Source: Modestobacter sp. VKM Ac-2985 (GTDB taxonomy: Bacteria; Actinomycetota; Actinomycetes; Mycobacteriales; Geodermatophilaceae). Taken from it: 64,000 nt of DNA. This document shows, piece by piece, positions 28,638-30,792 of the stretch. A program made the position numbers and the translations under genes. The notes under the pieces are model-generated. The model was not told where the DNA came from. It ran no database searches and saw only the letters and a program-made list of their open reading frames with translations. The stretch lies in contig NZ_JAPVBI010000003.1 of NCBI RefSeq assembly GCF_026967925.1, positions 561,070 through 625,069 on the forward strand, read 5' to 3'. Each line of letters starts with the position of its first letter. Position 1 is the first letter of the stretch.

Positions 28638-28658
28638 ATCTCATCTGTGAGATAGCGT
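28638..28658 (+). promoter_or_regulatory. Palindrome overlapping the -10 box of the HTH-MurA gene
   Basis: ATCTCA (28638-28643) and TGAGAT (28648-28653) form a perfect inverted repeat with a 4-bp centre. The right arm runs into the -10-like TAGCGT at 28653-28658, which is 8 nt before the ATG. This fits an operator for the XRE-type domain encoded by the same gene. Confidence 0.55.
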
Positions 28659-28666
28659 GGCCCGCG

Positions 28667-30211
28667 ATGACGCTGACCGAGGAGACGACGACCCAGTCCC
28701 TGCGCCAGATCGGTGCGCTCGTCCGGGACGCCCGGCGCCACCACGGACTCACCCAGCAGCAGCTGGGCGAGCGCCTGGGCACCAGCCAGAGCGCGATCGC
28801 CCGGATCGAGCAGGGCAACCAGAACCTCACCCTGGAGCTGCTCGGCCGGCTGTCGGCCGCGCTGGACAGCGAGCTGATCACCGTCGGCCGCAGCGGCCCC
28901 ACCCACCTGCGGGTCAGCGGCGGCAGACCCCTGTCGGGCAGCGTCACGGTGAAGTCGTCGAAGAACGCAGCAGTGGCGCTGCTGTGCGCCGCGCTGCTCA
29001 ACCGCGGCCGGACGACGCTGCGCAACGTCTCCCGCATCGTCGAGGTCGACCGGATCCTGGACGTGCTGACCTCGATCGGTGTCTCCGCCACCTGGGACGC
29101 CGCCGGCCGGGACCTCACCCTCGTCGTCCCCGAACAGCTCGACCTCTCCGCCATCGACGCCGACGCGGCCCGTCGCACGCGCAGCATCATCATGTTCCTG
29201 GGGCCACTGCTGCACCGGGCCGAGGACTTCCGGCTCCCCTACGCCGGCGGCTGCGACCTGGGCACCCGCACCGTCGAGCCGCACATGATCGCGCTGCGCC
29301 CCTTCGGCCTGGAGGTCGAGGCGCACGCCGGGGAGTACCGGGCGACGGTGGCCCCGCCCGTGGCGCGGGACCGGACGATCGTGCTGACCGAGCGCGGGGA
29401 CACGGTGACGGAGAACGCGCTGCTGGCCGCCGCCCGGCACGACGGGACGACCACGATCCGCAACGCCAGCCCGAACTACATGGTCCAGGACCTCTGCCTG
29501 TACCTGGAGCTGCTCGGCGTGCAGATCGAGGGCTTCGGGACCACGACCCTGGTGGTCACCGGCAAGCCCGTGCTCGACGCCGACGTCGACTACCCGCTCT
29601 CGGAGGACCCGGTGGAGGCGATGAGCCTGCTGACCGCCGGGATCGTCACCGGCTCGGAGCTCACCGTGCGCCGGGCGCCGATCGAGTTCCTGGAGATCGA
29701 GCTGGCGATCCTCGGCGAGATGGGGCTGCAGTTCGACCTGTCCCCGGAGTACCCGGCCGACAACGGGCGCACCCGGCTCGTCGACATCACCCTGCACCCC
29801 TCCCAGCTGCGGGCGCCCATCGACAAGGTGCACCCGATGCCCTTCCCGGGGCTCAACATCGACAACCTGCCCTTCTTCGCGGTGATCGCCGCGACGGCCA
29901 CGGGCAGCACGCTGATCCACGACTGGGTCTACGACAACCGGGCGATCCACCTCTCCGACCTGACCCGGCTGGGCGCCGACGTGCGGCTGCTCGACCCGCA
30001 CCGGGTGCTGGTGGAGGGGCCGACGCGCTGGTCGGCAGCGGAGATCGTCTGCCCGCCCGCGCTGCGCCCGGCGGTCTGCATCCTGCTGGCGATGCTGGCG
30101 GCCAAGGGCGACTCGGTGCTGCGCAACGTGGACATCATCGCCCGCGGCTACGAGCAGCTCTACGAGCGACTGGTCGAGATGGGCGCCCAGATCGAGGTCT
30201 TCACCGACTGA
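28667..30211 (+). CDS. XRE helix-turn-helix fused to MurA-like enolpyruvyl transferase
   Basis: 514 aa. Residues about 13-70 are an XRE/Cro-type HTH (IGALVRDARRHHGLTQQQL, then TSQSAIARIEQGN). Residues about 80-514 are a full UDP-GlcNAc enolpyruvyl transferase barrel. Active-site features match MurA: Lys99-Asn100 (KNAA), Cys196 in AGGCDLGTR at the right distance for the PEP-binding Cys, and DNRAIHLSDLTRLGA with the late Arg. The Asp loop is altered to PGLNIDNLPF. It may be an active second MurA, or a regulator that senses cell-wall precursors through the enzyme fold. Leaderless-type start. A terminator follows. Confidence 0.88.
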   Translation: MTLTEETTTQSLRQIGALVRDARRHHGLTQQQLGERLGTSQSAIARIEQGNQNLTLELLGRLSAALDSELITVGRSGPTHLRVSGGRPLSGSVTVKSSKNAAVALLCAALLNRGRTTLRNVSRIVEVDRILDVLTSIGVSATWDAAGRDLTLVVPEQLDLSAIDADAARRTRSIIMFLGPLLHRAEDFRLPYAGGCDLGTRTVEPHMIALRPFGLEVEAHAGEYRATVAPPVARDRTIVLTERGDTVTENALLAAARHDGTTTIRNASPNYMVQDLCLYLELLGVQIEGFGTTTLVVTGKPVLDADVDYPLSEDPVEAMSLLTAGIVTGSELTVRRAPIEFLEIELAILGEMGLQFDLSPEYPADNGRTRLVDITLHPSQLRAPIDKVHPMPFPGLNIDNLPFFAVIAATATGSTLIHDWVYDNRAIHLSDLTRLGADVRLLDPHRVLVEGPTRWSAAEIVCPPALRPAVCILLAMLAAKGDSVLRNVDIIARGYEQLYERLVEMGAQIEVFTD

Positions 30212-30218
30212 GAACGGA

Positions 30219-30242
30219 CCACCAGAATGGCCATTCTGGTGG
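30219..30242. terminator. Palindromic hairpin between convergent genes
   Basis: A perfect 24-nt palindrome (CCACCAGAATGG and its complement) lies 8 bp after the HTH-MurA stop and 8 bp before the stop of the leftward gene; flanking GAGAACGG/CCGCTCTC extends the stem loosely. It can also be a dyad binding site. Confidence 0.7.
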
Positions 30243-30249
30243 CCCGCTC

Positions 30250-30792
30250 TCAGTCGCGGAGGAGGACCGCGACGCCGACGCAGCCGAGGGCCCAGAGGCC
30301 GCTGGCCAGCGTGCCGATGATGAACCGCTCGGACGCGACCGGTGCCTTCAGCTCGTTGAACCGGCCGAGCCCCTTCACCGCGATCAGCACGGCGAGCCCC
30401 TCGGCGAACCCGGCCAGCACGGTGACCGCGATGGCGGTGCGCTCCAGCACGCCGATCCAGGCGCCACCCCGGAGCACCTCCGGGTCCGAGGCGCGCCGCC
30501 GCCCCGGCACCCGGTCGGGGTCGGCGGCCCGGAGGACGGCGGTGGCCACCGGACCCCCGCCCAGCGCGGCCGAGGCGACCGCCAGCAACTGACCGCCGAT
30601 CGCCACCCCGTCCCCGACCCGGCCCGCCCGCCAGGCGAGCGCGGCTGCGGTGCCCAGCAGCAGCACCAGCAGCACCCCGCCGAAGCGGCTGTCCCGCCGG
30701 TCGCTCTGCGGGGTCAGCGCTCCTCCGGCCAGGACCAGGACACCGAGGACCACGAGGGCGGCGATGCCCATCCCACCGCCCACTTCGCTCAT
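30250..30792 (-). CDS. Small integral membrane protein linked to SatD-like gene
   Basis: 180 aa with four likely membrane helices (about 6-22, 33-52, 57-78 and a C-terminal pair near 115-180, LERTAIAVTVLAGFAEGLAVLIAVKGL and IIGTLASGLWALGCVGVAVLL). The middle loop is Arg/Asp-rich. The ATG overlaps the stop of the SatD-like gene by 4 bp (ATGA). No catalytic motif is evident. The pairing of a SatD-like DNA-binding protein with a small membrane protein suggests a two-part system, function unknown. Confidence 0.75.
   Translation of the reverse strand: MSEVGGGMGIAALVVLGVLVLAGGALTPQSDRRDSRFGGVLLVLLLGTAAALAWRAGRVGDGVAIGGQLLAVASAALGGGPVATAVLRAADPDRVPGRRRASDPEVLRGGAWIGVLERTAIAVTVLAGFAEGLAVLIAVKGLGRFNELKAPVASERFIIGTLASGLWALGCVGVAVLLRD

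Follow-up and report, generated by a model that had tools for sequence, protein, structure and literature searches.

Within a 64,000-nucleotide stretch of the Modestobacter sp. VKM Ac-2985 genome (contig NZ_JAPVBI010000003.1, positions 561,070 to 625,069; hereafter the window), one gene encodes a protein, here called HTH-MurA, in which an XRE-type helix-turn-helix (HTH) domain precedes a MurA-type enzyme. From sequence comparison we consider it likely, with a probability of about 0.83, that HTH-MurA is a functional MurA that carries its own repressor and controls its own gene. The basis of this reading is the domain content of the protein, the invariance of its catalytic residues, the conservation and placing of a palindromic operator ahead of the gene, and the genomes in which no other MurA was found. 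In the proposed mechanism, the N-terminal HTH would, as a dimer, occupy the palindrome that covers the -10 box ahead of the gene and so block transcription, so that the level of the first cell-wall enzyme would be held at a set point. We infer repression rather than activation because the palindrome overlaps the -10 box. HTH-MurA would be the only MurA of many Actinomycetes and would stand beside an ordinary MurA in others, including the organism of the window.

The gene, defined as an open reading frame (ORF) and by domain searches, lies on the plus strand (28667..30211), begins with ATG and encodes 514 amino acids. Its product carries an XRE/HTH_3 domain at residues 19-69 (28721..28873, plus strand; 47.3 bits against a Pfam cut-off of 23), with a recognition helix running from about T39 to E48 (TSQSAIARIE); a structure model places helices at residues 30-37, 41-48, and 56-66. 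The MurA domain follows at residues 78-514 (28898..30208, plus strand). Here the Pfam model EPSP_synthase matches residues 84-502 with 153.9 bits (cut-off 22.8), the barrel spanning the whole length of the MurA part and being complete. Lys99, Asn100, and Cys196 align with K22, N23, and C115 of the Escherichia coli enzyme. Both the domain search and the alignment thus agree with the preliminary description of this DNA, which had seen an XRE-type HTH fused to a MurA barrel that keeps these three residues.

A palindrome conserved at the promoter

The putative operator is the perfect inverted repeat ATCTCATCTGTGAGAT (28638..28653), an exact instance of ATCTCA-N4-TGAGAT, as the preliminary description had it. 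The last T of the repeat is also the first T of a predicted -10 box, TAGCGT (28653..28658, plus strand), which conforms to TANNNT and ends 8 nt before the ATG; the mRNA is therefore probably leaderless. The overlap with the -10 box noticed earlier stands, and the spacing of 14 bp to the start codon is corrected to 13 bases. A scan of the window at up to two mismatches matches nowhere else (0.27 matches expected), and a genome search for further exact copies, as had been suggested, returned none in 4.7 Mb besides 28638-28653.

Conservation was scored in up to 220 nt before the gene at 246 homologue loci and the window, which after removal of two loci without the N-terminus and 17 duplicates left 228 distinct upstream stretches. 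The palindrome is exact in 100 of these, has one mismatch in 71, two in 50, three in three, and at least five in four. It is thus present at up to two mismatches in 221 of 228 relatives and at up to three in 224, compared with 1 of 1140 shuffled upstream stretches and none of 228 in-gene stretches at the two-mismatch limit. A TANNNT element begins at the last T of the palindrome in 201 of the 221 relatives with two mismatches or fewer, and the first in-frame start codon lies 8-20 nt past the palindrome in 181 of the 221 (median 12). Base by base, conservation is highest at ATCTCA, TGAGAT, and TA...T. Since the distance between palindrome and gene differs between taxa, the palindrome is not kept as coding sequence. 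The start-codon spacing and the TANNNT element in relatives point to a leaderless mRNA and to a site placed as that of a repressor would be. Two Cellulomonas loci have two palindromes 64 bp apart upstream of the gene.

The palindrome is also missing from all four members in which the recognition helix is ruined and TSQSA is lost (G139, G543, G668, and G670, all of one genus), whereas a fifth member of that genus (G669) has both helix and palindrome. In members with Gly in place of S42, the sites read AACTCA-N4-TGAGTT in 16 of 16 cases; among members with SQS this holds for only 3 of 207. Autoregulation, which the preliminary description had put forward, is well supported by this pattern of conservation: the site in 221 of 228 upstream stretches, a sole exact copy in the genome, the overlap with the -10 box, and the loss in the clade with the ruined helix all argue for it.

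Catalytic capacity

The residue alignment comprised 226 relatives, two copies cut short being left out. The equivalents of E. coli K22, N23, R91, C115, R120, D305, R331, R371, and R397, which we take to be the catalytic and phosphoenolpyruvate (PEP) residues of MurA, are invariant in all 226. The loop PGLNIDNLPF had been remarked upon as a departure from MurA, and it is indeed unlike that of other MurA proteins; the catalytic Asp is nevertheless present within it, D399 (D305 in E. coli) being kept in 226 of 226 relatives. All nine catalytic and PEP residues are likewise kept in the three ruined-helix members whose gene is intact, and in two of these genomes (G543 and G670) no other MurA was found. 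On these sequences the enzyme has outlived the operator in that clade.

Other MurA proteins in carrier genomes were sought with TIGR01072 at an E-value of 1e-40, which supersedes an earlier search at 1e-80 (10 of 30 genomes, Asp-type MurA only). HTH-MurA is the sole MurA found in 40 of the 114 carriers from the class sample and in 6 of 18 named carriers (Rarobacter faecitabidus, Serinibacter arcticus, three Aeromicrobium, and Mumia quercus); two of these 46 genomes are duplicated by coordinates, leaving 44 distinct. A wider Pfam model finds exactly one other EPSP-fold protein in each of the 46, unmatched as MurA. Since a MurA is required in any bacterium that has peptidoglycan, the HTH-MurA of these relatives should be an active enzyme. 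The NikO enolpyruvyl transferase (4fqd) shares the fold, and that HTH-MurA similarly serves another acceptor seems to us very improbable.

Where carriers have a companion MurA, it belongs to one of two main types: Geodermatophilaceae and some other carriers have Asp at position 115 (the Asp type), Streptomyces and the kin of Cellulomonas have Cys there. One companion (L294) has an unusual loop. Further MurA paralogues are a third MurA-like match in Streptomyces griseofuscus (G857:C2:200580) and a second MurA-like match (families f86 and f87) in genomes that, at the limit of the search for it, lack HTH-MurA.

Evidence against self-control by an active enzyme

Several observations weigh against the reading of HTH-MurA as an active, self-repressing MurA, and we take them together here. 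The first concerns its place among MurA proteins. UDP-binding and other MurA positions are altered in every member (226 of 226): in E. coli numbering, K160 is E, S162 G, V163 D, G164 T, E188 N, D369 P, and D49 E. The score against TIGR01072 is 297.4 bits, below the cut-off of 392.7, although the broader NF006873 cut-off is passed (309.2 against 297 bits). Since the D369 position is P464 and the S162-V163-G164 loop is G-D-T in all 226 relatives, unlike in standard MurA, we class HTH-MurA as a divergent MurA subfamily. If the enzyme is active in the genomes where it is the sole MurA, its ERGDTVTEN loop and P464 must tolerate UDP-N-acetylglucosamine (UDP-GlcNAc).

The second is the companion enzyme. 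The genome of the window, searched for a canonical MurA as the preliminary description had proposed, contains an additional ordinary MurA in which Asp replaces the catalytic Cys. Activity of HTH-MurA in this strain is therefore argued by kinship with its relatives. Further, one sole-MurA genome (G139) has an HTH-MurA split over two frames; as no other MurA was found there, the frame break may be an assembly error. In two genomes with a second MurA (G571 and G479), HTH-MurA is shortened in the reading frame found, which fits dispensability beside a second enzyme; taken together, the copies in these three genomes show a break between two frames, a shortened reading frame, or a missing N-terminus. 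The altered UDP loop, the D369P replacement, and the second MurA in this genome would all suit a catalytically dead sensor, a MurA fold binding UDP-GlcNAc only for control of DNA binding. The preliminary description had entertained such binding without catalysis, and this is contradicted by the nine residues that do not vary in any of the 226 relatives and by the 44 distinct genomes without another MurA found. We have rejected the dead sensor on these two grounds and hold its probability to be very small.

The third concerns the link between helix and operator. The loss of the palindrome is confined to a single clade, and once kinship is counted the covariation of helix and operator is not significant on the tree: there are three supported independent pairs, one changing in the same direction, none in the opposite direction, and two without difference. 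We have accordingly dropped covariation as statistical proof; helix and operator changing together is suggestive, and the evolutionary events are few.

The fourth is the occurrence of the pattern elsewhere. At up to one mismatch, the genomes of 24 relatives contain 85 places, compared with 4 for a reversed control pattern. Exact copies occur in 13 of 22 genomes among the matches listed (G539 in part), 12 of them at HTH-MurA and one (G533) elsewhere. Of the listed places, 57 off-gene sites were examined (G502, G171, and three places of G539 being left out), and TANNNT stands on neither side of any of these 57 near copies. Although 54 of the 57 fall within an ORF of 150 amino acids or more, this measure is weak at the G+C content in question, as 110 of 171 real sites also lie inside such an ORF; the feature that discriminates real sites is the -10 box (201 of 221, against 0 of 57 off-gene). 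In the genome of the window, up to two mismatches give 23 places and the reversed control gives 3; by itself, a pattern this loose is therefore unspecific. Near copies there number one at one mismatch and 21 at two, and the 9 of these 22 that were examined (L115-L123) have no adjacent -10 box. The sole one-mismatch copy (L115, G000:C1:1456644-1456659) lies in a prophage-like stretch and is among these nine. Given one exact copy in this genome and near copies without a -10 box, a regulon of several genes is unsupported, as is the suggestion made at the outset that the protein controls other genes, with none of 57 near copies elsewhere beside a -10 box.

The last concerns other regulators. SCO5998 of Streptomyces coelicolor is called MurA2 in PMC12161575, which also predicts a DmdR1 site in the SCO5998-SCO5999 gap, and PMC8346170 assigns SCO5998 a SigB-dependent promoter. 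We find the published SigB promoter 250-400 nt upstream of HTH-MurA, with 1-8 mismatches in 46 positions, at seven of the eight Streptomyces loci tried. SCO5998 is thus almost surely the same gene as HTH-MurA, and the SigB promoter and the predicted DmdR1 site imply that other regulators act too in Streptomyces. The palindrome itself might then belong to another regulator, with the HTH acting elsewhere or merely holding dimers together. The DmdR1 prediction in the same gap would agree with this, as would the sequence of the N-terminal domain, which persists in the members with a ruined recognition helix. Against it, the palindrome accompanies the gene in 224 of 228 relatives (at up to three mismatches) whatever the neighbours, no other promoter-like copy appears among the 57 off-gene places, and the members with a ruined helix have lost the palindrome. 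We therefore regard ownership by another regulator as improbable.

Mode of control, known systems, and distribution

A plain self-repressor that measures its own amount would explain the observations. A more elaborate possibility, to which we give somewhat less than even odds, is a ligand-gated trigger enzyme, in which a substrate or product in the MurA domain would switch DNA binding and the supply of precursors would set transcription. MurA closes on its substrates, and the HTH and MurA domains remain joined across the class, both of which favor such coupling. The linker (residues 70-80) speaks against it, being among the least conserved parts of the protein with none of its 11 columns invariant, and so does the clade that keeps the enzyme without palindrome and recognition helix, which indicates that the parts can work apart. 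More specifically, and only tentatively, the HTH might be released from its promoter or tightened on it when the active site closes on UDP-GlcNAc and PEP, or when UDP-N-acetylmuramic acid (UDP-MurNAc) holds a Cys196-PEP adduct, and in either case the demand for precursors would set murA transcription directly; even taken jointly, we think these two variants rather unlikely. If true, in the organism of the window only the Cys-type copy, and not the Asp-type companion, would carry a reactive Cys196. With one protein and a 16-bp site, feedback on transcription at the first step of the pathway becomes open to test, and the clade that has lost recognition helix and site while keeping the enzyme offers a natural comparison.

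HTH-MurA resembles the MurA proteins described by TIGR01072 and NF006873 in its whole fold, its nine catalytic and PEP residues, and its being the sole MurA found in 44 distinct genomes. It differs from them in its N-terminal HTH, its own putative operator, its separate and fully supported branch, the loop ERGDT in place of x-x-S-V-G, and P in place of D369. BirA, PutA, and NadR are autogenous enzyme-repressors with known ligand switches that control pathway genes. Like them, HTH-MurA combines a metabolic enzyme and a putative DNA-binding repressor in one protein; unlike theirs, its one promoter site found is its own. In XRE regulators of the PRK08154/BzdR type, a shikimate-kinase-like domain is fused to the HTH and the enzyme fold serves as sensor. 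HTH-MurA has the same order of XRE HTH and enzyme fold, and its HTH matches theirs, whereas its family must include active enzymes.

Full-text literature searches, whose coverage left out most subscription papers, returned nothing on either the HTH or the palindrome. Neither is described in the available parts of PMC12161575, PMC8346170, PMC12565409, and PMC4255298; in those of the first two, SCO5998 is treated as an enzyme only.

HTH-MurA occurs in 114 of the 394 genomes sampled from the class and in 26 of 138 genera, so that a sizeable share of the sampled Actinomycetes has a MurA fused to its own apparent repressor; in 40 of these genomes no other MurA was found. Among the named carriers are Blastococcus, Geodermatophilus, Oerskovia, Cellulomonas, Promicromonospora, Aeromicrobium, Mumia, Brachybacterium, Mycetocola, Kitasatospora, and many Streptomyces. 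Outside the class there is none among the phylum matches listed; three of these that align ahead of the MurA domain (L347-L349) have no recognizable HTH-MurA N-terminus by alignment, with no domain search made. In a quick tree of 60 rows, to be read with a long-branch warning, the 19 HTH-MurA sequences group together with full support, and the stem leading to them is long. HTH-MurA is an old family. No operon partner is constant, the widest neighbor cluster being present at 13 of 68 loci.

A sigma-70 promoter scan and a terminator scan each returned no sites. At the 3′ end of the gene, a strong hairpin lies over the stop codon (30206..30255, plus strand; -35.6 kcal/mol, z = -8.4), none of 200 shuffles being equally stable; it is a candidate terminator without a T run.
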